Assembly: GCF_900156475.1 (NCBI RefSeq)
Contig: NZ_FTNR01000002.1
Location: forward strand, 62,001 to 126,000
From: Natronorubrum thiooxidans
GTDB lineage: Archaea; Halobacteriota; Halobacteria; Halobacteriales; Natrialbaceae
DNA length: 64,000 bases
Direction: 5' to 3'
The notes beneath the pieces were generated by a model. It searched no databases, was not told the origin of the DNA, and saw only the letters and a list, made by a program, of their open reading frames with translations. Below, in pieces: positions 1 through 18,172 of this stretch (position 1 is its first letter; every line of letters starts with the position of its first letter). The translations under genes and the position numbers were made by a program.

Positions 1-2
1 AG

Positions 3-965
3 ACGATGCACAAAGGCGAGGAGATGAACGTCCGGATGGAGTCCTACGAGTACGAGTCGGCCTACGCACTCGGCCCGAACTCCGGCCACACCGACCGCGA
101 CGCCGTTGCGCTCATGATCGATCGCTGTAACGACATGGGCGTCGACACCATCGAGACGGGCAACATGATGGCGATGGCCATGGAGATGTCCGATGAGGAC
201 AAACTCGAGGAAGGCGACCTCGAGTGGGGCGATGCCGAGACGATGGTCGACATGATCGAACGGATCGGTCGCCGTGAGGACGACCTCGCGGACCTGCTCG
301 CGGAGGGGCCACGCCGCGTCGCCGATCGCAAGGAGGCCCACGACAACTCGCTGGCGGTCAAAGGCCAGACGATCGCCGCCTACGACCCACGCTGTATGAA
401 AGGCATGGGGATCGGCTATGCCACCTCGAACCGCGGGGCCTGCCATCTGCGCGGGTACACACCCGCCGCCGAAATTCTGGGCATCCCGGAGAAGGTCGAT
501 CCCTACGAGTACGAGGGCAAGGGCGAACTCACCGCTGCCTTCCAGGATCTCCACGCGATCAGCGACTCCTTCGACATCTGCAAGTTCAACGCCTTCGCCG
601 AAGGCATCGAGGAGTACGTCCTCCAGTACAACGGCATGACCGGCCTCGACGTCACCGAGGACGAACTCATGGAGGCCGGCGAGCGCGTCTACAACTTAGA
701 GCGCTACTACAACAACTTGAACGGCTTCGACGGCGCGGACGACTCCCTGCCCGCACGCTTCCTCGAGGACGGCATCCGCGGCCAGGGCGCAAGCGAAGGC
801 GAGTACTGCGAACTCGAGGAGATGAAAGACGAGTACTACGACCACCGCGGCTGGGTCGACGGCGTCGTTCCCGACGAGAAACTCGAGGAACTCGGCATCG
901 ACATCGGGCCGGGGACGGGCGTCAGCGCCGACAGCGGCGGTGCGGCGGCCCCGAGCGACGACTAA
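3..965 (+). CDS. Aldehyde ferredoxin oxidoreductase, C-terminal part (5' end cut off)
   Basis: The reading frame is open to the window edge, so only about the last 320 residues of a protein usually near 600 residues are visible. The fragment has the C-terminal AOR signatures: a segment with CNDMGVDTIETGN, the pterin/iron-sulfur region with CMKGMGIGYATSNRGACH, and SFDICKFNAF, whose Cys matches the last 4Fe-4S ligand of AOR family enzymes. These are tungsten-bispyranopterin enzymes oxidising aldehydes to acids with ferredoxin as acceptor, in the cytoplasm. The Met at base 6 is internal, not the start. The tail is Gly/Ala/Ser rich and acidic, as is common in haloarchaea. Substrate range (aldehyde, glyceraldehyde-3-phosphate or other) cannot be decided from this part. 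Confidence 0.9.
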   Translation, partial: TMHKGEEMNVRMESYEYESAYALGPNSGHTDRDAVALMIDRCNDMGVDTIETGNMMAMAMEMSDEDKLEEGDLEWGDAETMVDMIERIGRREDDLADLLAEGPRRVADRKEAHDNSLAVKGQTIAAYDPRCMKGMGIGYATSNRGACHLRGYTPAAEILGIPEKVDPYEYEGKGELTAAFQDLHAISDSFDICKFNAFAEGIEEYVLQYNGMTGLDVTEDELMEAGERVYNLERYYNNLNGFDGADDSLPARFLEDGIRGQGASEGEYCELEEMKDEYYDHRGWVDGVVPDEKLEELGIDIGPGTGVSADSGGAAAPSDD

Positions 966-1004
966 TCGACGACCGATCCCCCGCGGTCGGCGCCGGGGGC
1001 GACG

Positions 1005-1022
1005 GGTAGCGGTCGTTTTTTT
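1005..1022 (+). terminator. T-rich terminator after the AOR gene
   Basis: A run of seven T (1016-1022) follows a GC-rich stretch about 50 bases after the AOR stop codon and before the next gene. Archaeal termination mainly needs T-rich tracts. Shorter T5 tracts in similar positions occur at about 10963 (after the cupredoxin gene) and 16446 (after formaldehyde dehydrogenase). Confidence 0.4.
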
Positions 1023-1084
1023 AGCCCGATCGGCTCGAGCGGTCCTGCCGACTGTCGAGAACCGATCACCGCCGCAACGAGGAT

Positions 1085-1849
1085 ATGGACCTGTATCGGT
1101 ACAATTTCGGCGTCTATCACTGGCGGCGACGATTCGCATCGATCGGCGCCGCCCTCTCGGCGACTGTGATCGCTACTGCGGTCGGTCGCCGGACGGAGCG
1201 CCGTCGCCGAAAACTCGCCGCCGCGGCGGTCGGTGCCGGGGCGGCACTGGGAGGTACTCGAGTGGCGACTCGAGCGCTCTCACCGCCGCCCTGGAAGATC
1301 GATCGGGAGAAATACGAGGCGCTCGCGAGCCGGCTTCCGCTCGACGACGCGGCGCGGCTCCTTGACGTCGGCTGTGGGACTGGTCGGTCGCTCGTTGGCA
1401 TCGCACCCGCCGTCCCACAGGGATGCGAGACGATTGGCCTCGACGTCTTCGACGACCGAATCATCCTCGGTAATGGCCCGAGACTCGCGCGGCGAAACGG
1501 GCGTCGCGCCGGACTCACCGTGACGCCGATCGCTGGCGACGCGACGCGGCTTCCGCTGAGTGCGGGGTCGTTCGACGTCGTCACCGCCTGCCGGGTCTTA
1601 CACGACCTCGAGGCGCCGGCCGTCGACCGGACGCTCCGCGAGATCCACCGCGTCTGTACCCCCGACGGGTCGGTCGGGATTCTCGAACTCCCGCTCGTTC
1701 CGACCGACGTCTCAGCCGATCCGGAGACGTACTGGCCGGATCGCGTCTCGGCGGCGGGGTTTCGGATCGATGCGTACGAGCGCATCGAACGCGGTGGCGG
1801 TGGCGAACCGTATCTGTTGCTCGTGGCGACGCCGCGTTCCGATCGCTGA
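1085..1849 (+). CDS. Class I SAM-dependent methyltransferase with hydrophobic N-terminus
   Basis: The 254-residue protein has motif I of Rossmann-fold methyltransferases (LDVGCGTG, residues 93-100), an acidic residue at the end of the next strand (GLDVFDDR) and a later strand with FDVVTACRVLHDLE, typical of UbiE/Methyltransf_11 enzymes. Residues about 20-60 contain two short Ala-rich hydrophobic stretches, so the protein may sit at the membrane. The acceptor is unknown. It stands alone between the AOR gene and an ABC transport locus and I see no functional link to either. Confidence 0.8.
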   Translation: MDLYRYNFGVYHWRRRFASIGAALSATVIATAVGRRTERRRRKLAAAAVGAGAALGGTRVATRALSPPPWKIDREKYEALASRLPLDDAARLLDVGCGTGRSLVGIAPAVPQGCETIGLDVFDDRIILGNGPRLARRNGRRAGLTVTPIAGDATRLPLSAGSFDVVTACRVLHDLEAPAVDRTLREIHRVCTPDGSVGILELPLVPTDVSADPETYWPDRVSAAGFRIDAYERIERGGGGEPYLLLVATPRSDR

Positions 1850-1960
1850 CTGCCACCACGGAGTGTGTCCCTGATGACGGTCATACGAGGGGGACTGCTT
1901 AACGATATGTACAAATGTTTTATTTCCGACTCCGTGGATAGCTGCCGAATGTGAGAGGTA

Positions 1961-3034
1961 ATGACTCGCATAGATCATGCGCGCCGGTGTTTCCTAGCGG
2001 CCACGGGAGGGACGATCCTCGCCGGCTGTATCGGTGGGTCCGGCGACGACTCGTCCGGTTCGACGGCTGACGGCGAGCCGGACGTCGGCTCCGTTACGCT
2101 GTTGCTCAACTGGCGGATGAGCGGGCTCCACGCACCGTACGTCGCAGCCCGAGAGAACGGGTTTTACGAGGACGAAGGGTTTCAGGAGGTGACGATCGAA
2201 AGCGGGGACGGCTCCGACTTCGCCGCGAATCAGGCAGGCCTCGAGAACGTCGAGTTCGCGATCACGAGTAGCGATCAGCTCCTCAACGTCAACAGTCGCG
2301 GGCTCTCACCCCGCTGTGTCGCGGTCGTCATGCAGCGAAATCCGAACGTCGTCTTCGCCACCCGAGACGGATTCGGTGAACTGACCGAGCCCGCGCAACT
2401 CGAGGGCGCGACCGTCGGCAGCGGTCCCGGAATGGTCCGCCAGATGACCCAGGCCTACCTCGAGCACCACGACGTCCTCGAGACCGTCGAGTACGTCGAC
2501 ACCGGGTTCGACACCGTTCAGCAGTTACTCGCGGGCGATATCGACGCTGCCGGCGGCGTCTTCGGTGACGTCGTCGACGCCGAACAACAGGGTGGCACTG
2601 TCGACACCCTGTCGATCGACGAGACGATCCCGTCGTACGGGCATCTCGTCGCGACCGGTGCGGAGTTCGCGACGACCAACGAGACGACAGTTCGGTCCTT
2701 TCTCCGGGCGACTGCCAGAGGCGCTGTCTGGGCGTCCAATAACCCAGATGCAGCGGTCGACCTGCTGATCGAGGTGCAGCCGGAACTCGAGACGGTACGG
2801 GAGAATCAACTCGACAAGTGGAACCGGATGCGCTCGGAGTACATGCAGTCGGACTCGGTGGCCGAACACGGCTGGGGCTGGAACGAGCCATCGCCGTGGG
2901 AACGGACCTACGACACCCTCGAGGCGGCCGACGTCTTCGAGAACGACGTCGATCCGGAGACGGTGTGGACGAACGATTATCTCGACGATGCAGACGAATA
3001 CATCGCCGACTACGCCGAACTGGTCGAGACCTAA
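1961..3034 (+). CDS. ABC transporter substrate-binding lipoprotein, NMT1/THI5-like
   Basis: The 357-residue protein begins with a twin-arginine motif (RR at 8-9) and a lipobox ending at Cys23 (LAGC), so it is predicted to be exported by Tat and lipid-anchored outside the cell. After an acidic Ser/Gly linker comes an NMT1/THI5-like (SsuA/TauA/ThiY) binding-protein fold: LNWRMSGLHAPY (49-60), then an EHGWGW motif at 302-307. A GAGG ribosome-binding stretch lies just before the ATG. The permease at 3122 follows after 87 bases. No ATPase lies in this direction; the one encoded at 4733-5476 on the other strand is the likely partner. Ligands of this family include pyrimidine or thiamine precursors, sulfonates and nitrate. 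The exact ligand is not readable here. Confidence 0.88.
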   Translation: MTRIDHARRCFLAATGGTILAGCIGGSGDDSSGSTADGEPDVGSVTLLLNWRMSGLHAPYVAARENGFYEDEGFQEVTIESGDGSDFAANQAGLENVEFAITSSDQLLNVNSRGLSPRCVAVVMQRNPNVVFATRDGFGELTEPAQLEGATVGSGPGMVRQMTQAYLEHHDVLETVEYVDTGFDTVQQLLAGDIDAAGGVFGDVVDAEQQGGTVDTLSIDETIPSYGHLVATGAEFATTNETTVRSFLRATARGAVWASNNPDAAVDLLIEVQPELETVRENQLDKWNRMRSEYMQSDSVAEHGWGWNEPSPWERTYDTLEAADVFENDVDPETVWTNDYLDDADEYIADYAELVET

Positions 3035-3121
3035 CCGCCCGCACTCGAGTTTGCGGCTGCCGGTGTCGACGACCGAACCACACGCTGTCGATGCTGGCGG
3101 GAACGAAGCCGTGAGGGGGCG

Positions 3122-3952
3122 ATGACCGACGGCCGCGGCGATCGGCACTGGAGACAGCACGTCTGGCCCCGCTCGCGACCGTACTCGCGGGGGCTCCGCG
3201 AGCGCCTCGTGGCGGTGAGCGAACGTCTCGTGCCACCAGCCGCCGTCCTCGCGGCGTTGCTCGTTGCGTGGCAGGCCGCCGTCGTCGCCACCGAGCTGCC
3301 GACGGTGATTCTCCCATCTCCAATCGATGTCGCGAACGCATTGCTCGAGACGTACCCGACGCTGGCAGACGCCGCGATCGTTACGGGCACCACCGCTGCG
3401 ATCGGATTAGTTGGTGGCGGCGTCGTGGGGCTCGTGCTGGCGTTCGCAATGACGTACTCGCGAACCGCGACACGGACCCTGCTCCCCTATATCGTCGCGT
3501 TGCGAATCGCGCCCCTGATCGCCATCGCGCCGTTGCTGTTTCTGTGGTTCGGCCGCGGGATCCTCGCGCGATCGCTGCTCGTCGCAACCCTCACCGTCTT
3601 CCCGATGACGATCGCCACGCTCGACGGACTGCGGAACACGCCGACGGCCTATCTCGAGCTCGTGGAGTCGGTCGGGGCGTCACGAACCACCGCGTTCCTG
3701 TTCGTTCGAGTGCCAGCGGCCGCGCCGAGTGTCATCGCGGGGTTCAAAATCGCCACGACGCTGAGCGTCATCGGCGCCGTCGTCGCGGAGTTCGTCACCC
3801 TCCAGTCCGGCCTCGGTTATCTGGTGTTCGACACCGCGGCGTACCTCCGAACGGCCGAGACATACGCCGCACTGGTCGTCTTGACGGCGCTCGGCGTCGG
3901 CTTCTATCTCGTTCCGGTCGCCCTCGAACGAGTGCTCTGGTCCGATTCGTGA
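3122..3952 (+). CDS. ABC transporter permease (SsuC/TauC/ThiX type)
   Basis: This 276-residue protein has about six hydrophobic segments and the EAA-type cytoplasmic loop (ELVESVGAS followed by VPAAAPSVIAG, around residues 178-203) that contacts the ATPase in binding-protein-dependent transporters. It lies downstream of the lipoprotein gene at 1961 on the same strand. Its stop lies six bases before the end of an oppositely oriented paralogous permease gene (3958-4740), an unusual convergent pair. The two permeases may form a heterodimer sharing one ATPase. That is inference. Confidence 0.88.
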   Translation: MTDGRGDRHWRQHVWPRSRPYSRGLRERLVAVSERLVPPAAVLAALLVAWQAAVVATELPTVILPSPIDVANALLETYPTLADAAIVTGTTAAIGLVGGGVVGLVLAFAMTYSRTATRTLLPYIVALRIAPLIAIAPLLFLWFGRGILARSLLVATLTVFPMTIATLDGLRNTPTAYLELVESVGASRTTAFLFVRVPAAAPSVIAGFKIATTLSVIGAVVAEFVTLQSGLGYLVFDTAAYLRTAETYAALVVLTALGVGFYLVPVALERVLWSDS

Positions 3953-3957
3953 ACGCG

Positions 3958-4740
3958 CTACCGTCGTCCCGTCGAGCCGAATCCGAGCCACTGCTGGACG
4001 CCGCGCTGGGCGAGCACGATACCGCCGTACAGGGCGATTCCCTCGAGCAACAGGACGACGAGTGCTGCGAGCATGACATCCGGTCGGACGTTTTCCGAGC
4101 CGATCAGGACGAGAAAGCCGAGCCCGTCGTCCGCGATCACCCACTCCGCGACGACGGCGCCGACGACGGCGAGCGTCACTGACTGTTTGAGCCCTGCGAA
4201 CACGTCCGGAAGCGCGTACGGGAGGTCGACGAACCAGACCCGCTCGAGGAACCCGGCGTCGACCGACCGCAGCAGTTCGTGGTGCGCCGACGACGCCCGG
4301 TCGAGACCCGCTGCCGTGTTCAAGACGAGTGGAAAGAACGTAATGAGCGCGATGAACACGACCGCCGTCGTCGTGCCCGTCCCGAGATAGATCAACAGCA
4401 GCGGTGCGATGGCGAGTTTCGGCAGGACCCGGACGGCTACGAGGGAGGGATACACCGCGGTTCGGAACCACGGGAGGTACGCGACGAGCACTGCCAGAAC
4501 GAAGCCGGCGAGAACGCCGACGCTGCCGCCGTAGACCACCTTCTCGAGCGTCCGGATGGCGTTTTCGGCGTACAGCGCCGAGTTCTCGAGCAACTGTGAG
4601 CCAACGGCTGTCGGTGACGGTAACACGAACGACGGCACGTTGCCGAGAGCGGCCACCGCCCACCAGCACAGGAGCCCGATAGCGAGGGCGACGGCTGGAT
4701 ACACCACGTCGCCCACGATGGCGAGGTGTCGACTACGCAT
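3958..4740 (-). CDS. ABC transporter permease, second of the locus
   Basis: The frame is open further upstream, but the Met at 4740 (MRSRHLAIVGDVV) is the sensible start because the ATPase reading frame ends at 4733, giving an 8-base overlap typical of a translationally coupled operon. The 260-residue product has six or so membrane segments and an EAA loop (ELLRSVDAGF then DLPYALPDVFAG). It is a paralogue of the permease at 3122. Operon order in transcription is regulator (6753), ATPase (5476), permease (4740). Confidence 0.87.
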   Translation of the reverse strand: MRSRHLAIVGDVVYPAVALAIGLLCWWAVAALGNVPSFVLPSPTAVGSQLLENSALYAENAIRTLEKVVYGGSVGVLAGFVLAVLVAYLPWFRTAVYPSLVAVRVLPKLAIAPLLLIYLGTGTTTAVVFIALITFFPLVLNTAAGLDRASSAHHELLRSVDAGFLERVWFVDLPYALPDVFAGLKQSVTLAVVGAVVAEWVIADDGLGFLVLIGSENVRPDVMLAALVVLLLEGIALYGGIVLAQRGVQQWLGFGSTGRR

Positions 4741-5476
4741 AATTTTCGTGAAGCGTCTGTCGGACCTGCGCCACCTGTTCTTGGAACGATCGGGTGCCGA
4801 ACACGTCTTCCTCGCGGGGTTCGGGAAGGTCGACATCGAACGTCGCTTCGATCCGGCCCGGTTGGCCACACATGACGAGACACCGATCGGCAAGAAACAC
4901 CGCCTCGGGAACGCTATGAGTGACGAACACCACTGTCTTCCGTTCCCGACGCCATAGATCCCGGATCTCGACGCCGAGTTCGTCCCGCGTGATTTCGTCG
5001 AGTTCCCCGAACGGTTCGTCCATCAAGAGGACGTCCGCGTCGAGATGCAGGGCTCGAGCGATCGACACCCGCTGTTTCATTCCGCCGGAGAGTTCCTTCG
5101 GGCGGGCATCCTCGAATCCCTCGAGCCCCATCGATCGGAGCAACGCCCGTGCGGCGTCTGCCTCCGGCGCGTTTCCGGCCGTCTTTCGAAGGAACGTGAC
5201 GTTCTCGAGCGCGCTTTTCCAGGGAAAGAGTGTGTGTTGCTGGAACACGAAACCGATGTCCGCGTTCGTCTGAGCGGCCTCCGGCGACCGTCCGTCGATC
5301 CGCACACGGCCGCTCGTCGGCTCCTCTAAGCCGCCAATCGTTCGCAAGAGCGTCGTTTTGCCACAGCCTGACGGGCCGACGATCGTGACGAACTCGCCCT
5401 GCTCTACTCGGAGATCGACGTTCGAAATCGCAGTAAACCCGTCGAACGCGACAGTGACGTCCTCGAGGGAAATCAT
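4733..5476 (-). CDS. ABC transporter ATP-binding protein (SsuB/TauB/ThiZ type)
   Basis: The 247-residue ATPase starts with MISLEDVTVAF at 5476. Its ATG overlaps the stop of the upstream regulator gene as ATGA. Walker A is GPSGCGKT (34-41), the Q-loop Gln is at 80, the ABC signature is LSGGMKQR (129-136) and Walker B is LLMDEPF (150-156). It is the only ATPase in the locus, so it probably drives both permeases encoded at 3122 and 3958. It acts on the cytoplasmic face of the membrane. Confidence 0.93.
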   Translation of the reverse strand: MISLEDVTVAFDGFTAISNVDLRVEQGEFVTIVGPSGCGKTTLLRTIGGLEEPTSGRVRIDGRSPEAAQTNADIGFVFQQHTLFPWKSALENVTFLRKTAGNAPEADAARALLRSMGLEGFEDARPKELSGGMKQRVSIARALHLDADVLLMDEPFGELDEITRDELGVEIRDLWRRERKTVVFVTHSVPEAVFLADRCLVMCGQPGRIEATFDVDLPEPREEDVFGTRSFQEQVAQVRQTLHENYA

Positions 5477-6753
5477 GCGGGATCGGGGAGGAGACCGCCG
5501 TGCTCGAGTGCCGTTCGAAGCCGATCCCACGCTGCTCGGCGCTGCCATCCCCATCCGTGTTCGCGGACGGCCTCGCTCTCGCCGAACGCCGAGACGGCCC
5601 GATCGAACGTCTGCCGGATTCGCTCCGGGCTGTCGTCGCTCGTCGCGGCGAGCCGATCGACTGCCGGGGCTGGATCCCGACGCGCTTGGGCCCACCCGCC
5701 GGTCGTCCCCGCCAGAAACCCCTCGAGTGGTGCCCGCTGCGCCTCGAGCGTCGACTCGTGGACGACCAGCGCCGGTCCGGCGACCGGAAAGTGGTCGGCG
5801 AGCCGGATGGTGTCGACGGTCCGGTCTCGCCGCTCCAGCGCGTCTGGATCCGAAAACGAGCCCGTCACGACGTCCGCCGTTCCGTGGCTGAGCGCCGCCC
5901 GCTCTTCGCCGTTCGTATCGACGATTCCGACGTCGTCGAACCCGGTCTGGGAGAGAAAGAGTCGCCCGAGGAGTCTCATCTCGGAGTCGGGTGGCATCCC
6001 GACGCGTCGCCCCTCGAGTTGCCCGACGCTCTCGAGCGGTTCGCCGAAGACGCTCCGGATCGTATAGAGCACCGTCATCGCGCGCTGGTAGAGCAACGCG
6101 ACCGGGACGATCGGTTCGCCGGCGGCCCGCGCGCGAGCGACCGTCGCAGCCCCGACGACTGCGACATCGGCCACACCGGAGCGGACCCGCTCGAGCGCCC
6201 GTCGAGAGCCGTCGTGGTGGTCGAGCCGAACGTCGACGTCGAACGCGGCGTACCACTCCGCCGCGATCGCGGCGTGAATCGGCACGTGGAGGGCGTTCGG
6301 CCGCCAGTTGAGCGCGACCTCGAGCGTGTGTGACGGTGTGGCCTCCGCCTCGGATCGCGATCGGCGCGTGTCCTCACGCTCGTGACGGTCGTGACACTCG
6401 AGCGCGTGGTCGATCAGCGCGCTCGCGTGCGTCCGATACGTTCGCTCGATCGTCGCTTCGAGGTCGTCGATCGGCCCCCACGCCGTCTGCGGTCGGCCAG
6501 GATCGTCCGCTCGAACGGACGATCGGTCGACTAACTCGCGCTCCTCGAGGGTCGTCGTGGCGTCGTTGATCGTCGTTCGATTCGACTGGGTGCCAACCTG
6601 CAGGTGCGTACTCGTCGCCGGCTGCTCGACGCGGCGGTCCCGCAAGAGGAGGTACGCGAGGACTCGTGCCGGCGAGCGGCCCAGACCGGCCGCGATCCTA
6701 TCGACGACCGGCGCGTCGTCGTCGTCGAGTACCCAGTAGGAGCGCGCGTGCAT
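5473..6753 (-). CDS. Winged-helix regulator fused to an ABC binding-protein-like sensor domain
   Basis: The 426-residue protein has no signal peptide. Residues 1-85 look like a winged-helix DNA-binding domain of MarR/TrmB kind (VLAYLLLRD, then TTINDATTTLEERELVDR), followed by a charged linker. Residues from about 145 to the end resemble NMT1/THI5 binding proteins and share motifs with the lipoprotein encoded at 1961: LNWRPNALHVP (148-158) and EHGWGW (398-403). The natural reading is a one-component regulator that senses in the cytoplasm the ligand transported by the neighbouring system. It is first in a coupled operon with the ATPase and permease. An alternative is a cytoplasmic scavenger protein that does not bind DNA. 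Confidence 0.8.
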   Translation of the reverse strand: MHARSYWVLDDDDAPVVDRIAAGLGRSPARVLAYLLLRDRRVEQPATSTHLQVGTQSNRTTINDATTTLEERELVDRSSVRADDPGRPQTAWGPIDDLEATIERTYRTHASALIDHALECHDRHEREDTRRSRSEAEATPSHTLEVALNWRPNALHVPIHAAIAAEWYAAFDVDVRLDHHDGSRRALERVRSGVADVAVVGAATVARARAAGEPIVPVALLYQRAMTVLYTIRSVFGEPLESVGQLEGRRVGMPPDSEMRLLGRLFLSQTGFDDVGIVDTNGEERAALSHGTADVVTGSFSDPDALERRDRTVDTIRLADHFPVAGPALVVHESTLEAQRAPLEGFLAGTTGGWAQARRDPAPAVDRLAATSDDSPERIRQTFDRAVSAFGESEAVREHGWGWQRRAAWDRLRTALEHGGLLPDPA

Positions 6754-7092
6754 TGGGTCGTGGTAACTACCTGCGTGATACGTATAATGGTTTCCCGGCG
6801 GCGCAGTCAGCGGTTCGACCTGCCTACACGGGAGGTTCCCCCTCTCGAGTGCCGGCTGCTGGAGTATGCACTGCCTGTCGTCGATCCAGTGGTTGCGTCG
6901 CCGCCGAAATCACAGCGAACGGAACCGTATCCGACTCCTACACAACGGATGTTTCGAGCCCGTCGTTCACGCGCGAGCCACGGCGAGAGTGGTGTGAGTC
7001 GTATTATATGAATTTAGATATTGATTGTGGTATTGGAATTCTTTGATAATCATTATCCAATTCTACGGTGTCGTAACAAGTGTGGTGTTAGC
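6754..7092. promoter_or_regulatory. Divergent intergenic region with a palindrome (339 bases)
   Basis: This gap separates the divergently transcribed regulator operon (start 6753) and the gene at 7093. Its right part is AT-rich (about 7000-7060, including a TATTATATG-like stretch) in contrast to the surroundings. At 7045-7057 is the perfect palindrome GATAATCATTATC, flanked by further complementary pentamers (ATTGG at 7032 and CCAAT at 7057). No small gene is convincing here. The site is a plausible operator for the gene at 7093. Confidence 0.45.
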
Positions 7093-7995
7093 ATGCACCA
7101 AATATCTACCCAACCGAACGCGACGGCTGCGGATAGACGCAGTTTAGCCGCGACACTCGGTGTCGATACCGCTGGCGACGAGGCGGTAACGTGGGACCGG
7201 TTGGCGGGAACGGTCGAACCAGTAGCCGACTCGACATTTGCTTCTCGAGGCGAGGCGATACGGGCAGACCTCGCGGGGAAACTGGACGTGGAGTTACTCG
7301 AGCGAGAACGACGCGCGCTTTGGACGGAGCTCGAACGGCTCGCGGACGTCCGCGCCGCTGGCGTCCCGGACGAGCCGGGCGAATTGTACGACGAGGTAGC
7401 AGCCCCGGGGTGGCGACTGTATGACCACTTCCTCGAGATCGGATTCTTCGAGAGCCTCGACGAGAACCTGCCGCGGTTCACCGCCGACCACATCGAAGCG
7501 ACGGCGCGCGAGTTGATTCTGGCGGCTCCCCTCTCGTCGGCGCTCGACGACGTCGGATTCGAAGAGCCCGAAAAGCTGGCACTGTTGAGCACCGTGGCGA
7601 ACAACACCGAGCGACTCGCCCGGTGGGTGCCGTCGAATCAGATTCCGGACGGCGTCGAGTTCGATACCACGAACGTGCCGCCGCTCCATCAGCGCGCGAT
7701 GGGCGGGGCGCTGCTGTGGATCGACGGCCTCGACAGACACCTCTGGCAGAACGAGGTGCTCGTCACAGACGACATCCTCGACGACGCCGCACGACACGTC
7801 AAGGCGATGCTAGGCGGGCTGTTCGTCTCGACGACCGCGATCCACGACCTCGCCACCGACGAGACGTTCACAGACGAGCAGTTGACCGCCGCGCTCACCG
7901 CCGGCACGGCCGTCCAGATCGTCAGCCAAGAGGAGTTGCTCCACGATGTCTTCTACATCACGGACGACATGCGCGCGCCGAGCGAACTGAGGTGA
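7093..7995 (+). CDS. Unknown helical protein upstream of PQQ dehydrogenase
   Basis: I do not recognise this family. The Met at 7093 (MHQISTQPNATAADRR) is preferred over one 72 bases upstream, which lies in AT-rich promoter-like sequence. The 300-residue product is acidic, lacks a signal peptide and membrane segments, and looks mostly helical. Its stop is six bases before the start of the PQQ dehydrogenase gene, so the two are co-transcribed. It may be a chaperone or accessory factor of that enzyme. This rests only on context. Confidence 0.7.
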   Translation: MHQISTQPNATAADRRSLAATLGVDTAGDEAVTWDRLAGTVEPVADSTFASRGEAIRADLAGKLDVELLERERRALWTELERLADVRAAGVPDEPGELYDEVAAPGWRLYDHFLEIGFFESLDENLPRFTADHIEATARELILAAPLSSALDDVGFEEPEKLALLSTVANNTERLARWVPSNQIPDGVEFDTTNVPPLHQRAMGGALLWIDGLDRHLWQNEVLVTDDILDDAARHVKAMLGGLFVSTTAIHDLATDETFTDEQLTAALTAGTAVQIVSQEELLHDVFYITDDMRAPSELR

Positions 7996-8001
7996 TCCCG
8001 T

Positions 8002-9711
8002 ATGGCACTTCGCAACGATAGGGCCGTTCAGGCCGCACGCGACATCGAACTGGTAGAGATCGAAGACGGCTATACGCTGGTCGGTGGCCCCGAGGACTCG
8101 GTCACCGAACAACACGACACGGACCGCATTCCGGAGGTGGACGTCGATCAGGAGATGCTGAGCAACACAGGGGAAGACCCCGAGTCCTGGCTCATGTACG
8201 GCGGGAACTACGAACAACACCGCGTCACACCCGCCGACGTCATCACGCCCGACAACGTCTCCGACCTCGAACTCGAGTACGAGCTGTCGGTCGGGACGGG
8301 CTCGAGCATGGAGGGGACGCCCGTCGTGATTCCGGGTGACCCGCCGGTCATGTACCAGACGAACGGGCCCAATCACATGAAGGCGATCGACCCCCGCGAG
8401 GGGGAGGTCCTCTGGAGTTACACCTACGCGCCGCCGGTCGGCGTCGAACTCTGTTGTGACGACAACAACCGCGGAGCGGCCGTCTACGGCGACAAGGTGT
8501 ACATGACGACGCTCGACTCGGGCGTCGTCGCGCTGGATCGGTACACCGGCGAGGAGGTCTGGTACACGAGCACGGCAAACCACGAGGAGGGGTACTCCGC
8601 GACGTGGGCCCCGGTGATCCACGACGGGACGCTCTACACGGGCAGCGCCGGCGGCGAGTACGGCGTCCTCGGTTTCGTTGCCGCCCTCGACGCCGAGAGC
8701 GGCGATATCCTGTGGCAGACCGATACGCTCCCCGAAGACGAGTGGATCGGCGCGAGCCGCGAGCACGGCTGTGGCACGACCTGGATGACGCCGACGATCG
8801 ACGAGGAACGGGGCGTCCTCTACACGGCGGTCGCGAATCCCGGGCCGGACTTCGACGGGACGGTCCGGCCGGGGCCGAACTTCCCCACCTGCGGGACGAT
8901 CGCGATGGATATGGAGAGCGGCGAGCACCTCTGGGGCTTCCAGAGCAGCCCGCACGACGTGTGGGACTACGACGCGGTAGCCCCGCGGGTGCTCCTCCGC
9001 GACGTGGAGACCGACGACGGGACGATGAACATGGTCGTCGGCTCGGACAAGACCGGCTGGGTGTACATGATGGACGCCGAGTCCGGCCGGCTCCACGAGC
9101 GCAGTGAGGAGATCTGCCAGCACATCAATATGTGGGAGATGATCCCCCACATTAGCGAGGACGAGCGGATCCCGTTCGTCCCCGGCGCGCCGGGCGGCAA
9201 CGACTGGCAGCCACCGTCGTACAATCCGGCGACCGGATACGTGTACGTCATCCACCAGAACTACCCGCAGGACCTCGTCTGGCGCTACGAGGAGTACGAT
9301 CAGGGCAACCCCTACTGGGGCGGCGATCTGGACGATCCGGCTTCGGAGTTCCCCGACGAGTGGAACGGCTCGATCACCGCCTTCGCCGCGGTCGATCCAG
9401 CGACGGGCGAGCGCGTCTGGCGCGATTGGATCGAAAGCGAGGACGATCACTATATGTGGGGCGGCTCGATGTCGACCGTGACGGGACTCGTGTTCAACGG
9501 CACCCAGAACGGCACCTTCGTCGCCTACGACGGCGAGAGCGGCGAGCGCCGCTGGGAGCACGAGTTCGACGTGCCGATCAGCGCCTCCCCGATGAGCTGG
9601 TACGACCCCGGCGAGGAGAAACAGTACGTCGCCGTGCAGGTCGGTGGCAGCGGCTGGCTCCGACAGGGGCCACGCGGGAGCACGCTTGCCGTGTTCTCGA
9701 TAGACGCCTGA
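8002..9711 (+). CDS. PQQ-dependent alcohol dehydrogenase family enzyme
   Basis: The 569-residue protein is an eight-bladed quinoprotein propeller: repeated W-motifs, vicinal cysteines CC at 151-152 (VELCCDDNNRG) like the disulfide over PQQ in methanol and ethanol dehydrogenases, Glu219 in GGEYGVLGF and Asn279 in ANPGPDF at the metal-ligand positions, and WDYD at 321-324 with the likely catalytic Asp. It would oxidise an alcohol or sugar and pass electrons to a carrier such as the blue copper protein encoded at 9736. No N-terminal signal peptide is visible although such enzymes usually act outside the membrane. No PQQ biosynthesis gene is present in the window. Confidence 0.85.
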   Translation: MALRNDRAVQAARDIELVEIEDGYTLVGGPEDSVTEQHDTDRIPEVDVDQEMLSNTGEDPESWLMYGGNYEQHRVTPADVITPDNVSDLELEYELSVGTGSSMEGTPVVIPGDPPVMYQTNGPNHMKAIDPREGEVLWSYTYAPPVGVELCCDDNNRGAAVYGDKVYMTTLDSGVVALDRYTGEEVWYTSTANHEEGYSATWAPVIHDGTLYTGSAGGEYGVLGFVAALDAESGDILWQTDTLPEDEWIGASREHGCGTTWMTPTIDEERGVLYTAVANPGPDFDGTVRPGPNFPTCGTIAMDMESGEHLWGFQSSPHDVWDYDAVAPRVLLRDVETDDGTMNMVVGSDKTGWVYMMDAESGRLHERSEEICQHINMWEMIPHISEDERIPFVPGAPGGNDWQPPSYNPATGYVYVIHQNYPQDLVWRYEEYDQGNPYWGGDLDDPASEFPDEWNGSITAFAAVDPATGERVWRDWIESEDDHYMWGGSMSTVTGLVFNGTQNGTFVAYDGESGERRWEHEFDVPISASPMSWYDPGEEKQYVAVQVGGSGWLRQGPRGSTLAVFSIDA

Positions 9712-9735
9712 CAATCACTACCGAACGACAGACCA

Positions 9736-10935
9736 ATGAGCAACCAACACACGCGCGAAGACGTTTCGCGACGCGGTGTACTGAAGGGAACGGCAGCGGT
9801 CGCCGGGACGGCTGCGACCGCCGGCACCGCCGGCGCCTACCGCGATGCGATTGATTTCCGACTCCCGGCGGCACAGAACGACGGCGATGGCCGAACCTTC
9901 TCACTGCTCGGTATCGTCGGCGGCTGGATCGGGGTCTCGCCCGCGGAAATCGACGGGGCCTCGAACCCGACGCTGCGACTGATCGAGGGCGAAGAACACG
10001 AAGTCATCTGGACGAACGGGGACGGCTCACGCCACAACTTCGTCCTCGCGGACGAGGAGGGCGACGTGATCGAGTCGACGGACTTCCTCGCCGAACAGGG
10101 CGAATCGCTGTCGCTCGAGTTCACCCCCGACGAGGAGATGGCCCAGTACTACTGTATTCCACATCCGGTCCAGATGCGCGGCCCGATCGAAGTGGTCGAC
10201 GCCGAGGACGTCCACGAACTCCGCGTCCGCGTCGAGGACGAGGCGGGCGATCCACTCGGTGCGGAAGTATTCGTCGGGGACCAACACGCGTTCTCCAGCG
10301 TGGCGTCGAAGCCGAGTCCGGACGCCGAGGAGGAAGAAGATCCGCCCGCGGTCGCCCGCTTCGACATGCTCGAGGACGGCGAGTACGAGATCGACGTCTG
10401 GACGTTTGGCCACGAACGGGTGACCGACACGGTGACGATCGACGGCGACGACGCGGAACTCACCGTCACGCTGCCAGCCGTCGAACCGGGCGAGCCGACC
10501 GAGACTGTCTCGCTTCGACTCGAGGAGGGGCAGTGGGTCGGTGGCGACAGCGACGAGGCGAACCCGACGCTCGAACTCGAGGCCGGCGAGACCTACGCAG
10601 TCGAGTGGGAGAATACGATTGGGCGGCACCAACCCGAGCGAGAGAGTCGGAGCTTCGAACCGCTGCCCGGTCACAACTTCGCGATCGCCAGCGACGGCGA
10701 GACGAACGAGTGGAACACGTACGTTCGGTCGGCCTTCACAAGCGAGGAAGGGGCCACGCAGACGGTTGAGTTCGTCGCGAACGAAGACATGGGTGTCTAC
10801 CTCGATCAGGCCCAGTTAGACGCCGTCGGAGAGATCAGCGTTACCGGCGACAGCGGCGGTACGGACAACGGCGGTGCGGTTGAAAACGGGGACGAGGCGG
10901 GCGACGACGAGTCCGCGGAGACCGACGACGACTGA
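9736..10935 (+). CDS. Tat-exported blue copper (cupredoxin) protein with a degenerate second domain
   Basis: The 399-residue protein opens with a Tat signal (SRRGVLK, residues 11-17, then a hydrophobic Ala/Gly stretch). Residues about 55-155 form a type 1 copper domain: His100 (SRHNF), Cys140, His143 and Met147 (YYCIPHPVQM). A beta-rich middle part (about 160-250) resembles a carboxypeptidase-regulatory-like domain. A third part (about 255-375) is arranged like a cupredoxin (GHNFAIASDGE) but has VYLDQAQLDAVG where the Cys-His-Met loop would be, so it probably binds no copper. An acidic Gly-rich tail ends the protein. It follows the PQQ dehydrogenase gene by 24 bases and is its likely electron acceptor. 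Confidence 0.86.
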   Translation: MSNQHTREDVSRRGVLKGTAAVAGTAATAGTAGAYRDAIDFRLPAAQNDGDGRTFSLLGIVGGWIGVSPAEIDGASNPTLRLIEGEEHEVIWTNGDGSRHNFVLADEEGDVIESTDFLAEQGESLSLEFTPDEEMAQYYCIPHPVQMRGPIEVVDAEDVHELRVRVEDEAGDPLGAEVFVGDQHAFSSVASKPSPDAEEEEDPPAVARFDMLEDGEYEIDVWTFGHERVTDTVTIDGDDAELTVTLPAVEPGEPTETVSLRLEEGQWVGGDSDEANPTLELEAGETYAVEWENTIGRHQPERESRSFEPLPGHNFAIASDGETNEWNTYVRSAFTSEEGATQTVEFVANEDMGVYLDQAQLDAVGEISVTGDSGGTDNGGAVENGDEAGDDESAETDDD

Positions 10936-10983
10936 GACGAACGGACGCCGGCTCCGCTTCGTTTTTCGAGAGTAGACACCGAC

Positions 10984-12096
10984 TCACCACGTGTAGTTCG
11001 CGATCCAGTAGACGACATAGAGGGCGACGAGTGTCGCGCCGCCGAGACGGGTCACGCGACTGCGAGCCAACATGGCCGTCACGACGAGCAGACACGCCGC
11101 GAAGAACGGCCAGTGGACCGTCATCACCGCGCCGCTGGTGTCGATCGGGTGGAGAAGCGCGATCAGGCCGACGTTCGCCGTCATGTAAAACATCGTGCTT
11201 CCGACGACGTTGCCAACGGCGAGGTGCGGTCGACCCTGTCGTACCGGCTCGACGGTGAGCGCGAGTTCTTCGATGGAGGCGATGAAGCTCAGCACTGTCG
11301 CCCCGAACGCGAGCCCTGAGATGCCGAACGCGACGAACATCCGCTCCGCGCTGACCACCGTGATCAGCGACCCGACGGTCATCCCGACGATCGAGAGGAT
11401 CGCAACCCCGAGCGCGAACAGTCCGCTCCGGTGTTCGAGTTCGGGGACGAACTCGTCCGGATCGAGGTCGAGATCCAACTCGAGCGGTCCGGATCTGCGC
11501 TCGTCGCCGTCCCCACCCTCGACGGCGGCCTCAGTCGCGCCATCGCCGTTCGATGCCCGGGGCCGCTCGGACGCTTCCTCCACGAGGTCGGCGTCGACGA
11601 CCTCCTGAACCGCTTCGGAGAGCAGATAAATCGTCTCCGACCGCCTCTCACGCCAGAAGATGTACGCGAGCAGCGGGACAAACACGGCGACGAGCACTGC
11701 CCCGTGCTGCAACTCGATCGTCCCGTCGAGTGACATCGCGAACACCGGGAGCGGAACGAGCAGCAACAGCAACAGGTACGCTCTCGGGACGTCGATCTCG
11801 AACGGGACGAACAGGCCCGCGATACCGACGGCGACGGCGAGGACGAACAGCGACTCGCCGAAGACCGTCCCGATAGCGAGATCGGGCAGCGCGACGAAAG
11901 CGGCAGTGACCCCCAGTACGGCGTTCTCGAGGTCGACACCGGCCAGGATAACCGCGAGGAAGAACCCGGAGATACCGAGCGAGACGGCACTCTGTGCGAC
12001 CGCGTCGATGAAGATCTCCACACACCAGATGACCAGGCCGACACCCAGGAGAAACAGGCCGACGAAGAGGCCGATCTCCACCTCCGCTGCGACCAT
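10984..12096 (-). CDS. Sodium/calcium exchanger (CaCA) family membrane protein
   Basis: The 370-residue protein has about ten hydrophobic segments in two halves separated by a long acidic cytoplasmic loop (residues about 140-210). The second half has the CaCA alpha-repeat-like pattern SIEELALTVEPVRQG followed by HLAVGNVVGSTMFYMTANVG, where canonical exchangers have an acidic residue and GNxxGSNxxN. The first repeat is more divergent. It is the second gene of a two-gene array with the paralogue at 12173-13276 and would exchange Ca2+ or another cation for Na+ or H+. The exact ions are not deducible. Confidence 0.8.
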   Translation of the reverse strand: MVAAEVEIGLFVGLFLLGVGLVIWCVEIFIDAVAQSAVSLGISGFFLAVILAGVDLENAVLGVTAAFVALPDLAIGTVFGESLFVLAVAVGIAGLFVPFEIDVPRAYLLLLLLVPLPVFAMSLDGTIELQHGAVLVAVFVPLLAYIFWRERRSETIYLLSEAVQEVVDADLVEEASERPRASNGDGATEAAVEGGDGDERRSGPLELDLDLDPDEFVPELEHRSGLFALGVAILSIVGMTVGSLITVVSAERMFVAFGISGLAFGATVLSFIASIEELALTVEPVRQGRPHLAVGNVVGSTMFYMTANVGLIALLHPIDTSGAVMTVHWPFFAACLLVVTAMLARSRVTRLGGATLVALYVVYWIANYTW

Positions 12097-12172
12097 GGGT
12101 AGTCACACGACGGTGGATTACTTAATTCGACGACCGGCAAAGCGGCTCGTGTCGGCCGCCGAAATCGGGATC

Positions 12173-13276
12173 TCAGAGTGGATCCGGGATCGGAACGCCG
12201 CCGAAGACGAGGACGGCGAGCACCCAGTAGGCGACGTAGAGGCCGAGAAGCACGTACCCATGTCGCCGACGAATTCGTCCGGTAGAGATGTAGTACGCGG
12301 CAACGGCGGTCAAGATAATAACTGCGGGGAGATGGAAGACGAGGACGTCTCGCGGAACGACCACATCGGCGACGAACGCGATGATACCGACGTTCGCCGT
12401 CACGGAAAAGATCACGCTGCCGATGACGTGACCGATTCCGATCTCCGGAACGCCGCGGCGAACCGGTTCGATCGTCAACAGCAGATTCTCGAAAGTCAAC
12501 ACGAGCGTCAGGATCGTCGCGCCGAAGACTGTTTCTTCGATCCCCCACGTTTCGGCGATCACCTCCGAACTCGCCTCGAGGAGTGCCGCTCCCGCGACGA
12601 GACCGAGCAGCGCGACGAGCGACAGCCCGATCCAGAAGAGCCCTTCGTACGACCGGTCCGCGACGAATCGGTCTTCCGGAATGTCTTCGAGGACCGCTCG
12701 GTTGTCGACGTCCGTAACGGTGAGTTCGTCGATTGGGACGCCGCCGTCAGCCTCGATCCGCTCTGCAATCTCCGAATCCCTGAAGACGGGGACGTCGCGC
12801 TGAATTTCACGATAGATGATATACCCGAACAGAACGACGAAGATCGCAGTGAGCGCAAGCCCGTGAACGAACGTGAGCGTGCCGACGAAAATGAACGGAA
12901 TCAAGACCAGCGGCGACAGTACGAGCAGTAGCAGATAGTCCGGCGGGATCTCGACTGGAAACGGCTTGTAGATGGCGGCGACGGCCAGCGTGATCCCCGT
13001 GATTGCGAGTGCGGTTCCCAGCGCCGTCCCAAGAGCGACCTGCTCGAGGCCGCCAGCACCGAAGACGAGTGCGACGGCGGTGTCGTCGAATTCGAAGCCG
13101 GTGAAGACGATCGCCAGGCCGAAAATCGAGACACCCAGCCCAAAGGCAGCACGTGTCAGGTAGCTAATTAGCTTTTCGACGCTGTAGGTCAGGACGACCG
13201 CCCCGACGAGGAGCATGAGATACGCCATCCAGACGCCTTGTGACTCGATGAACCCCTCGATGAGCTCTTCGACCAT
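12173..13276 (-). CDS. Sodium/calcium exchanger (CaCA) family membrane protein, paralogue
   Basis: This 367-residue protein shares length, membrane layout and acidic central loop with the protein encoded at 10984, 76 bases downstream. Its second repeat is FENLLLTIEPVRRG then GIGHVIGSVIFSVTANVG. The first (LEQVALGTALGTALAITGI) departs from the canonical Asn-rich alpha-1 motif, so ion selectivity may differ from classical exchangers. A TATA-like box lies 24-29 bases upstream of the ATG, implying a leaderless transcript, and sits inside an inverted repeat. Confidence 0.8.
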   Translation of the reverse strand: MVEELIEGFIESQGVWMAYLMLLVGAVVLTYSVEKLISYLTRAAFGLGVSIFGLAIVFTGFEFDDTAVALVFGAGGLEQVALGTALGTALAITGITLAVAAIYKPFPVEIPPDYLLLLVLSPLVLIPFIFVGTLTFVHGLALTAIFVVLFGYIIYREIQRDVPVFRDSEIAERIEADGGVPIDELTVTDVDNRAVLEDIPEDRFVADRSYEGLFWIGLSLVALLGLVAGAALLEASSEVIAETWGIEETVFGATILTLVLTFENLLLTIEPVRRGVPEIGIGHVIGSVIFSVTANVGIIAFVADVVVPRDVLVFHLPAVIILTAVAAYYISTGRIRRRHGYVLLGLYVAYWVLAVLVFGGVPIPDPL

Positions 13277-13292
13277 AGCACCGTATATGAGT

Positions 13293-13348
13293 CATGATAC
13301 CATATATCTATCATGTCGTGTATACGATTCCGTTGAACTCGTATACAC
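13293..13348 (-). promoter_or_regulatory. Promoter with two inverted repeats upstream of the exchanger genes
   Basis: Two perfect inverted repeats lie side by side. CATGATA (13293-13299) pairs with TATCATG (13309-13315), with a TATA-like CCATATATC spacer. GTGTATACGA (13318-13327) pairs with TCGTATACAC (13339-13348) across 11 bases. The first encloses the predicted TATA box of the exchanger gene starting at 13276, the classical place for a repressor; the second lies just upstream of it. The neighbouring ArsR-type regulator is the obvious candidate binder. Confidence 0.55.
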
Positions 13349-13422
13349 GGATCGAGAATCGGGGTGCCGACCGACCGCTCGCCGATTCCGTGTGACGGTG
13401 TCGCGGGTACGACCGGGCCCGG

Positions 13423-13764
13423 TCATCGTTGGGGCCGGTCTTCGCCATCGATCGATTCAGCCTGCAGAAGGAACGTCCGTTCCGGCGGCGGCGCGATCTG
13501 CAGTTCGATGGTGGCAGCCAGTTCGTAGTACTTGCGGTTCCCGCGCATGTACCACTCGACCAAGCCAGCCTCCTCGAGCGTCGAGAGATGGTGGACGGCA
13601 GTCTTCCCGTCCATTCCGGTCGCCTCTGCGAGTTCCGAGACGTACTTCGGTTCTCGGGAGAGTTCACGTAGAATCTCGAGTCGCGTCCCGTTCCCCAACG
13701 TCTCGATGAGTGACATGCGCTCGTCTTCGGTCCCGGCAGCAAGAAGGATTTCGCCGGGTCGCAC
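13423..13764 (-). CDS. ArsR-family winged-helix transcriptional regulator
   Basis: The core LIETLGNGTRLEILREL, EPKYVSELAEATGMD and AVHHLSTLEEAGLVEW is a standard ArsR/HTH_20 winged helix. The C-terminal strand-rich tail (about 25 residues) is common in haloarchaeal members. The start is uncertain: I chose a GTG at 13764 (113 residues) because ATG starts at 13830 or 13845 would overlap the divergent gene at 13829 and leave no promoter. A TTTATGAG-type element at about 13799-13806 could serve both directions. No metal-binding Cys cluster is visible. The location suggests control of the adjacent exchanger genes. Confidence 0.75.
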   Translation of the reverse strand: MRPGEILLAAGTEDERMSLIETLGNGTRLEILRELSREPKYVSELAEATGMDGKTAVHHLSTLEEAGLVEWYMRGNRKYYELAATIELQIAPPPERTFLLQAESIDGEDRPQR

Positions 13765-13828
13765 CGCTTGACGCTCGGTCTCTGATGGGTGCTCCGGGTT
13801 TATGAGACTATGTGTGGTACTGTACAGC

Positions 13829-14131
13829 ATGTCCGATCGAGTCACCCTTCCGGAAGATCGAAATCACGAACGTCGTACGATCACGGACGGCTTTTTCGAA
13901 CGGGAGGTGTACCTCTCCCGCGACGAGACGGCCGCGTTCCTCCGTGATCTCGCCGATCAGATCGAGGCCGAGACGACGGTAACAGTCGCGGGATCGGGAT
14001 GGGAAATCCCCTTCGAGTATCGCGATCCGATCGAGGTCGAGATCGAGTTCACGAAACAGCGCGACCGCGAACTCGAGATCGAACTCGAATTCAGCGAGCC
14101 ACGTGGCGGATCGGATCTCTCCATCCGGTGA
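13829..14131 (+). CDS. amphi-Trp domain-containing protein
   Basis: The 100-residue acidic protein has the pattern of the haloarchaeal amphi-Trp domain: an N-terminal FEREVYLSRDETAAFLRDLADQ helix, then WEIPFEYRDPIEVEIEF and alternating hydrophobic/acidic strands. Function is unknown. The ATG at 13829 is preferred over an upstream in-frame ATG because a TATA-like element (TTTATGA, about 13799-13805) lies 25-30 bases before it, which fits a leaderless transcript. It is divergent from the ArsR gene. Confidence 0.8.
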   Translation: MSDRVTLPEDRNHERRTITDGFFEREVYLSRDETAAFLRDLADQIEAETTVTVAGSGWEIPFEYRDPIEVEIEFTKQRDRELEIELEFSEPRGGSDLSIR

Positions 14132-14188
14132 TCGACACCGGTACCTGGCCGTCTGTCACTCGAGCGGCGACGATGATTCGCCGCATCG

Positions 14189-15040
14189 TCAGTCGTCGGC
14201 CTCGACTGCGGTTTCAGTCGCCCCAGCCAGTTCGAGCCACGGCTCGGCGTTCGACTCGGCGACGGCGAGGTCGACGAGCGGCTGCTCACATCCGTCGCAG
14301 ATGGACCGAACGACGACCGCCGACCGTCGACAGCAGTGTTCGAGCCGGTCTACCGTCGTGTGCAGTTCTTCCCCGCAGGCTGGACAGCGGTCGCGGAGCA
14401 GTCGCACTCCCATCAGGAGGTCCCGACGCTCGCTCGTCTCGAGCCCGTCCCACCCCTCGAGTCGGGTTCGGAGGACGGCCACTGCAGTGGCGTCTGCCCG
14501 TAGCGCTGCAGTCGACTCCCAGCGAACCCGCTTGCGTCCGTCGAGAACGAACGCCGCGTCGTCGAGGCGCTCGATCTCGTCGGCAGCGAACAACGATTCG
14601 ATCGCGTCTGGAATCGAATCGGCCTCGTCGCGATCGGTGAGTCGCTCGTTCCATCGCTCGCGAACGGACGGTCGCAGTTGGACCTCGCCGTCCCGTTCGG
14701 TCGCGACGTCGGCGGCGAGCAGCACGCTCTGTAGATCCGCGGCCGACACCGTCTCGATCGTCGGCCTACTCGGCACCGGTTTTCCAAGGCGTTTGAGGAC
14801 CCTGGCGGGAAGATATCGACGGGTGATCGTCGGCGTTCTCGGGAGCAGGTAGCCCCGGAGGCGGATGATCGCCAGAAACGCGCCGAACGCGAGCGTACCG
14901 ACGGGAACGGAAATCGCGATACCGATACCAGTCGCGAGCACGACCGCGATTACGACGTTTACCACCGTACACGGGAGACAGCGGTTTTCCCCGGTGTACT
15001 CGGGTTGCTCGAGCCGTGCGATTACGTCTGAGACGGTCAC
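14189..15040 (-). CDS. Haloarchaeal membrane protein with C-terminal zinc-ribbon-like cysteines
   Basis: I do not recognise a named family. The 283-residue protein has a CLPC pair near residue 21, two adjoining hydrophobic segments (about 25-62), a long acidic soluble part and C-terminal cysteines arranged CPAC, HCC and CDGC (about residues 220-255), likely a zinc ribbon. It is probably a membrane-anchored protein with a cytoplasmic metal-binding domain. It stands alone, convergent with the amphi-Trp gene. Confidence 0.65.
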   Translation of the reverse strand: MTVSDVIARLEQPEYTGENRCLPCTVVNVVIAVVLATGIGIAISVPVGTLAFGAFLAIIRLRGYLLPRTPTITRRYLPARVLKRLGKPVPSRPTIETVSAADLQSVLLAADVATERDGEVQLRPSVRERWNERLTDRDEADSIPDAIESLFAADEIERLDDAAFVLDGRKRVRWESTAALRADATAVAVLRTRLEGWDGLETSERRDLLMGVRLLRDRCPACGEELHTTVDRLEHCCRRSAVVVRSICDGCEQPLVDLAVAESNAEPWLELAGATETAVEADD

Positions 15041-15251
15041 TGGTGTCTAGTGTCATACTAGTGGTGTCGAACGCCGAAAAACCGCCCCCTGTCCATCCCT
15101 CGCTCGACGTTCGCTCGAAGACGACCGTCTCCGACGCCAGTCTGTTTTACAAACCAAACGGATCGTCGGTAAATATTGTCCATCGAGCGTTCATACTCAC
15201 AGTAAGATTTACATCGGTGTTTGTGGTTCCCCGAACGAGGTTTGATACCAA

Positions 15252-16418: not shown

Positions 16419-16522
16419 CGCCCCTGCTATCGAAATTCGATTCCGTTTTTCAGTCCGATACCTGCACATCGAACCAGTTACGATCGACGGCTGTTTCTCG
16501 CTCGGCCGAACGAGCTGTCGTG

Positions 16523-16684: not shown

Positions 16685-16805
16685 GCCCAACGCGGGCCGT
16701 CGTGACAGCATAACCTTTCTGTATCGGCCGCCACGCGTCGGTCCTCGAGTTCGAGCCCCTCCCATCGGAGAAACAGGTATGCCACTAAGCGACATACTCC
16801 GATAT

Positions 16806-16964: not shown

Positions 16965-16967
16965 GCA

Positions 16968-18122: not shown

Positions 18123-18172
18123 ATGCTACCGAGGACCACGATACGGACGGTACTAAGTGACCAGGGTTACTC

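Follow-up and report, generated by a model that had tools for sequence, protein, structure and literature searches.

The locus described here raises the question of whether a transporter binding protein has been recruited as the ligand sensor of a transcription factor encoded in the same gene cluster, and which compound such a sensor would detect. The window, meaning the whole stretch of Natronorubrum thiooxidans DNA that was analyzed, comprises 64,000 nucleotides (64 kb).

Domain architecture of the predicted regulator

An ORF check at 5473-6753 confirmed the reading frame on the minus strand, where it starts with ATG. According to the original prediction, its product combines an N-terminal winged helix-turn-helix (wHTH) domain with a binding-protein domain and has no signal peptide. 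The protein, termed REG, was assigned the following elements.

5473..6753, minus strand: predicted one-component regulator (REG), 426 aa; wHTH, long helix, linker, and NMT1/ThiY-type binding-protein fold
6469..6753, minus strand: N-terminal wHTH domain of REG, residues 1-95; AlphaFold2 (full protein; residues 1-127), TrmBL2 Z 10.3, MarR-like
6379..6462, minus strand: long helix of REG, residues 98-125; AlphaFold2, with a putative dimerization role by analogy with TrmB/MarR-type regulators
6337..6378, minus strand: poorly ordered linker of REG, residues 126-139; pLDDT < 50 at 128-137
5476..6336, minus strand: sensor of REG, type-II periplasmic-binding-protein fold, NMT1/THI5 family, residues 140-426; ThiY 3ix1, PF09084

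The AlphaFold2 model of the whole protein, obtained with an alignment of 25 orthologues, has a mean pLDDT of 91.5 and a pTM of 0.91. It consists of a wHTH at residues 11-95 with four helices (11-24, 26-41, 48-55, and 59-71) and a two-stranded wing (75-80/89-94), then helix 98-125, which is probably a dimerization helix, and a complete type-II binding-protein fold from residue 140. Residues 1-127 modeled separately gave a pLDDT of 90.0, and the fold search with this part identified TrmBL2 (Z 10.3, rmsd 2.5 over 103 residues), MarR-type regulators and AbfR2 (Z ~9), and also ST1889. By sequence, the wHTH is faint in the window protein (MarR_2 E 0.059; NCBIfam Lrs14 E 0.005 and MreA E 0.002), and MarR_2 reaches E 9.7e-6 in the orthologues, among which the GRP..W wing motif and the region of helix 59-71 are conserved. 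For the sensor, the fold search returned the FAMP-binding protein ThiY (3ix1; Z 29.7, rmsd 2.8 over 279 residues), as well as thiamin-bound 4nmy (Z 26.9), Thi5 (25), SsuA (23), and the PQQ-binding PqqT (9b1u; 21.4). The NMT1 family PF09084 was recognized in REG with E 3.9e-24 (86.2 bits vs the curated cut-off of 20.5) and in 25/25 orthologues (E up to 0.01). Both domains of the proposed fusion, the wHTH and the binding-protein fold, are present in the predicted structure.

Inspection of the window sequence revealed neither a signal peptide nor a lipobox in REG. The N-terminal hydrophobic maximum is 0.89 in REG vs 1.81 in the lipoprotein encoded at 1961, and the orthologues have acidic N-termini that align with one another. 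Together with the conserved wHTH N-terminus, these sequence features predict that REG is cytoplasmic, as had been supposed.

Searches for the defining domains of known regulator families were negative. No match was found for the LysR domains (HTH_1 and the LysR substrate domain) or for LacI HTH and Peripla_BP in the window protein or in the 25 orthologues, none for the TrmB family up to E 1 in the window protein or up to E 0.01 in the 25 orthologues, and none for the ThiN domain in REG, the C-terminus of which has the NMT1 fold. Assignment of REG to LysR, LacI, TrmB, or ThiR was rejected because these domains are absent.

Transporter locus and relationship of the sensor to the lipoprotein

The gene of REG adjoins the following transporter genes.

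4733..5476, minus strand: ABC transporter ATPase (ABC_tran E 2.4e-36)
3958..4740, minus strand: ABC transporter permease B (BPD_transp_1 E 5.9e-19)
3122..3952, plus strand: ABC transporter permease A (BPD_transp_1 E 9.7e-23)
1961..3034, plus strand: class A substrate-binding lipoprotein with an RR + lipobox (LAGC) signal (PF09084 E 3.9e-31)
5473..5476, minus strand: ATGA overlap of the REG stop and the ATPase start (translational coupling), the same overlap being present in 37/39 loci

The layout in which REG-ATPase-permease B face lipoprotein-permease A is recurrent among the loci. Of the 39 loci that have a neighboring ATPase, 37 show an overlap of exactly 4 bp between the REG stop and the ATPase start, and the remaining two have spacings of -8 and +8. 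A PHROGs search gave no match.

The motifs that the original prediction had noted in both REG and the lipoprotein, LNWR...LHxP and EHGWGW, lie within an alignment far beyond chance. BLASTP aligned the two proteins with 28% identity over 281 residues (E 2e-24), covering REG residues 143-417, and comparison of profile against profile gave E 3.2e-47; the first motif reads LNWRPNALHVP in REG and LNWRMSGLHAP in the lipoprotein, and EHGWGW is identical in both. The sequence search returned ThiY (3ix1) as the best solved relative of each. Haloarchaea hold two families related to the REG sensor. Class A comprises the lipoproteins adjoining the transporter, and class B comprises cytosolic paralogues of ~321 aa that have no signal and start right at the domain (MSSISFQLNWEPNGFQAP...). 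A recurrent gene order around class B is cupin-c16-c28-B-VOC, where c16 and c28, too, encode NMT1-fold proteins without a signal.

In a tree of 87 domains, REG, class A, and class B each formed one clade (support 100, 99, and 99). The grouping of REG with class B had a support of 84, which is not significant, and the grouping of REG with class A stayed unrejected in the AU test (p 0.66); therefore, the donor of the sensor may be either the lipoprotein or class B. The original prediction that a binding protein was internalized as a sensor thus stands as regards the homologous fold and the shared operon, whereas the transporter lipoprotein is only a possible donor and a cytosolic relative on the class B side may have been the donor instead.

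Positions kept in REG, class A, and class B include L148, N149, W150, G182-S183, R233, D294, G298, G326, W401, and W409, among others. ThiY has L148, W150, H156, D294, G298, and W409 and departs at N149, 182-183, 233, 326, and 401. H156 is kept in REG and class A and is Gln in class B. Other positions are family-specific: at 258, REG has Glu, the lipoproteins have Met, and class B has Lys, and at 283-284 the residues are Glu-Glu, Asp-Thr, and His-Thr, respectively. As judged from the alignment, some of these positions would line the pocket, and it is plausible that the REG sensor and the lipoprotein bind related ligands.

Candidate operator upstream of the lipoprotein gene

A search for palindromic motifs in 25 class A promoters, followed by a scan of the 64-kb window, yielded one candidate site.

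1900..1921, no strand assigned: candidate operator, the 22-bp imperfect dyad TAACGATATGTACAAATGTTTT, abutting the TTTATTT promoter element of the lipoprotein gene

The 22-bp element has the consensus aAA.gaTTcg..cgAAtc.TTt. The likelihood of the palindromic motif was 173 vs 27-36 for shuffled promoters, the symmetry peaked only at the dyad center (5.0 of 11 pairs vs ~3 at other offsets), and the site at 1900-1921 was the top-scoring one in 64 kb (15.2, with the next at 9.5). However, a non-palindromic promoter model fits better (227 vs 173), and thus the element is partly an ordinary BRE/TATA. The same motif search and scan found no dyad in REG's own promoter and no palindrome common to the REG and lipoprotein promoters. 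Four class A promoters outside REG loci, not used in training, scored 0.2-7.8 vs mostly 10-15 for the REG loci, which are the training set; the lower scores outside REG loci are suggestive only. The dyad at 1900-1921 is accordingly presented as a predicted operator.

Genomic distribution and link to a quinoprotein alcohol dehydrogenase

The fusion was sought in 391 haloarchaeal genomes (the class). It recurs beside ABC genes: the full-length REG fusion is present in 59 of the 391 genomes, and 39 loci have a neighboring ATPase. The carriers include Natronococcus, Haloterrigena, Halalkalicoccus, Halorubrum, Haloplanus, Natrinema, Halolamina, Halomarina, Halogranum, and Haladaptatus. Seventeen of the 59 REG genomes are without this transporter (class A); therefore, the transporter is not the sole concern of REG. 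A PQQ-type alcohol dehydrogenase, together with its presumed helper P7093, is the most constant partner of REG. Overall, the original interpretation is partly supported. The corresponding genes in the window are as follows.

7093..7995, plus strand: P7093, 300 aa, found in the same genomes as the dehydrogenase; Tat-like RRxFLK N-termini in orthologues
8002..9711, plus strand: quinoprotein alcohol dehydrogenase (methanol/ethanol family) with vicinal CC and WDYD (PF01011 E 2.2e-51)
9736..10935, plus strand: Tat-exported plastocyanin-like copper protein, candidate electron acceptor (PF00127 E 1e-7, TAT_signal)

The methanol/ethanol family TIGR03075 matched the quinoprotein with E 1.4e-107, yet below the curated cut-off. 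The vicinal CC is at 151 and WDYD at 321, and the latter is present in 17/17 quinoprotein homologues among the matches listed. An extra Asp marks lanthanide-dependent enzymes, e.g., PedH (PMC5487730), and the WDYD of the quinoprotein would, as judged from the motif, represent this lanthanide-type Asp. P7093 and its Tat-bearing orthologues gave no usable family in Pfam up to E 10 and no NCBIfam family; the Tat-like RRxFLK start was seen in the orthologues from loci L108, L109, and L124. Hence, P7093 may mediate export of the signal-less dehydrogenase.

P7093 and the quinoprotein occur in exactly the same 69 of the 391 genomes. They are present in 58 of the 59 REG genomes (p 9e-57, ancestry ignored), and 11 of the 69 dehydrogenase genomes are without REG. 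All 69 dehydrogenase genomes have class A or the cytosolic module containing class B (class A only in 16, the module only in 24, and both in 29); elsewhere, one or the other was found in 3 of the 322 genomes without the dehydrogenase (p 8e-74, ancestry ignored). The co-variation of the set recurs within several genera, and in the window's own genus two genomes have the full set and six have none of it. The c16 gene is present in 54 of the 391 genomes, 53 of which have the quinoprotein. The cytosolic module may make or salvage the cofactor of the quinoprotein.

Several further features were observed at these loci. The cytosolic module (L057:1168-6949, L043, L047, L051, and L160-L176) consists of a divergent cupin, three consecutive signal-less NMT1-fold proteins (c16, c28, and class B), and a VOC protein. 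In genome G193, which is without the quinoprotein, a C-terminal remnant of REG (~180 aa) lies at L093:7992-8543 and the class-B-like copy also carries a stop; the whole set is decaying in this genome. Two tandem Na/Ca-exchanger-family proteins are encoded near REG in the window (10984-13276), exchanger matches are found in 36 of 60 loci, and any connection of the tandem exchangers with the supply of Ca or lanthanides is speculative. Genes of an ArsR-type HTH protein and of an amphi-Trp protein often lie near REG as well, each in 29 of the 60 loci. The C-terminal part of an aldehyde ferredoxin oxidoreductase at 6-965 (AFOR_C E 3.4e-99) is beside the locus also in the window's close relatives and may act on the aldehyde formed by the dehydrogenase.

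Proposed mechanism and ligand

In the mechanism that we propose, the wHTH of REG would bind DNA as a dimer, with the long helix holding the halves together, and the ThiY-type domain would close on a small, probably aromatic, molecule already in the cytoplasm. Closure on the ligand would alter the binding of REG at a putative operator in the promoter of the lipoprotein-permease operon, the direction of control being likewise conjectural. Since the dyad overlaps the promoter element, the simplest model would be ligand-controlled access of TBP/TFB. REG would be produced in step with the transporter ATPase and the second permease. The ligand would most likely be a compound required by the neighboring quinoprotein, namely PQQ, a PQQ-like cofactor, or a precursor, which this transporter would import and which in other haloarchaea the cytosolic module would handle. 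Taken as a whole, this explanation (a one-component regulator with a ThiY-type sensor, the lipoprotein promoter as its target, and a PQQ-type ligand) appears on balance probable to us.

The occurrence of class A or the module in the dehydrogenase genomes suggests a compound that is imported or dealt with in the cytoplasm and is needed by the dehydrogenase, for which PQQ is proposed as the obvious candidate. The identification of the ligand itself as PQQ or a close relative is tentative. The solute-binding protein PqqT binds PQQ with a Kd of 50 nM (PMC12124388), but the sensor family is nearest by sequence to thiamine/FAMP binders and not to PqqT, which gave no profile match to the lipoprotein or to class B up to E 5. 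Among the PQQ biosynthesis proteins sought, PqqE gave sub-cutoff general radical-SAM matches only, and PqqC gave no match, as was also the case in the control genomes.

REG could instead respond to an alcohol, aldehyde, or acid that the dehydrogenase consumes or forms, and it would then be an ordinary catabolic switch. Regulators of catabolism often adjoin the transporter, and the genes nearby include, besides that of the quinoprotein, the C-terminal part of the aldehyde ferredoxin oxidoreductase (6-965) and a zinc alcohol dehydrogenase (15252). Against this, 16 dehydrogenase genomes have the importer only and 24 the module only, which is odd for a scheme of import and degradation, and the known ligands of the NMT1/ThiY family are mostly heterocycles, sulfonates, and anions. 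The import-or-module pattern is easier to reconcile with a compound that is required than with a plain growth substrate, and we consider a catabolic switch rather unlikely.

A thiamine-type pyrimidine (HMP, FAMP, or thiamine) as the shared ligand of the same regulator, with an indirect link to the dehydrogenase, is unlikely. It draws on the fact that ThiY (FAMP) and thiamin-bound 4nmy are the best sequence and structure relatives of REG, of the lipoprotein, and, with THI5, of class B. However, no thiamine gene is among the recurring neighbors that were identified, and the Rfam scan of window positions 1-20000 gave no match and thus no TPP riboswitch. The loop GTYINHE of ThiY has a role in pyrimidine binding, and the alignment shows that it is not conserved in REG. 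Furthermore, the presence of the set tracks the dehydrogenase almost perfectly, which is unexpected for thiamine salvage.

The strict coupling of REG to the ATPase gene would also suit a non-transcriptional role, in which the wHTH serves protein contacts or the sensor has lost its ligand and REG tunes the transporter in the manner of the C-terminal binding-protein-like domains of the ATPases NrtC/CmpC, whose cytoplasmic NMT1-type regulatory domains (9uak and 9u9z) appeared in the fold search. The 17 of 59 REG genomes without the transporter, the conserved wing motif GRP..W and helix 59-71 region, and the dyad upstream of the lipoprotein gene make such a role quite improbable. An exported binding protein with an odd N-terminus from a misread start, as the public name "ABC transporter substrate-binding protein" of the orthologues might suggest, is scarcely credible given that the first 130 residues are conserved across the orthologues and fold confidently, with no signal and no lipobox.

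The preferred reading is therefore that of a transcriptional regulator with a cofactor-type ligand. In its broadest form, REG would be a PQQ sensor amid a haloarchaeal quinone-cofactor economy, in which either a PQQ importer or a cytosolic module that makes or salvages the cofactor serves a quinoprotein with the lanthanide-type Asp; this extended scenario we regard as doubtful. We know of no earlier transcriptional PQQ sensor, and our literature search found no paper on haloarchaeal lanthanide/PQQ alcohol dehydrogenases. REG thus leads to the testable question of where haloarchaea that carry PQQ-type alcohol dehydrogenases get the cofactor and by what means they sense it.

Comparison with known systems

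REG is thus real and conserved, a predicted one-component regulator whose sensor is of the ThiY type and whose gene lies in the operon of a transporter that has a homologous catcher. Public records hide the regulator under the names "ABC transporter substrate-binding protein" and "hypothetical protein," and the literature search found no paper describing this wHTH-binding-protein fusion.

Among archaeal regulators, REG is similar to TrmB of Thermococcales (maltose/trehalose), a one-component regulator with an N-terminal wHTH and an effector-binding C-terminus, and the wHTH of REG is structurally closest to TrmBL2. The trmB gene lies beside malK within the very ABC transporter operon that TrmB controls, and a palindrome precedes malE (PMC4158304); the position of REG beside the transporter ATPase resembles that of trmB beside malK in the trehalose/maltose operon. 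In contrast to TrmB, REG is without the TrmB Pfam domains (PF01978 and the effector domain sought), and its sensor is a complete ThiY-type binding-protein fold. In ThiR, likewise archaeal, the HTH is joined with a domain borrowed from thiamine metabolism. Its ThiN sensor is derived from an enzyme, unlike the NMT1/ThiY binding-protein fold of REG; ThiN-domain repressors are cited in PMC8305020.

Among solute-binding proteins, ThiY of Bacillus halodurans (3ix1) shares its fold with the REG sensor but is an exported transport protein with 21% identity, and its loop GTYINHE is not kept in REG. PqqT of Methylorubrum has the same superfamily fold and a link to PQQ alcohol dehydrogenases; unlike REG, it is exported and has no DNA-binding domain, and profile searches with the lipoprotein and class B gave no match to it.

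The union of a DNA-binding domain with a periplasmic-binding-protein fold is known from the LacI/GalR and LysR regulators, and the LacI/GalR sensors come from sugar-binding PBPs (PMC6079105). REG differs from both in its HTH class, in the NMT1/THI5 branch of the PBP superfamily, and in its archaeal host, and the recruitment of its sensor is independent of theirs. The combination of an archaeal TrmB/MarR-like wHTH with the NMT1/ThiY branch is new as far as the sources searched go. Synthetic PBP-DBD chimeras demonstrate that fusing a binding protein to a DNA-binding domain yields a functional sensor (PMC6079105), and REG would be the natural, conserved version of this design, in which an archaeal transcription factor has taken up a ThiY-type transport protein fold for sensing. 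Because the operon cluster that includes REG has kept the gene of the exported relative, sensor recruitment and ligand retention are amenable to parallel tests.
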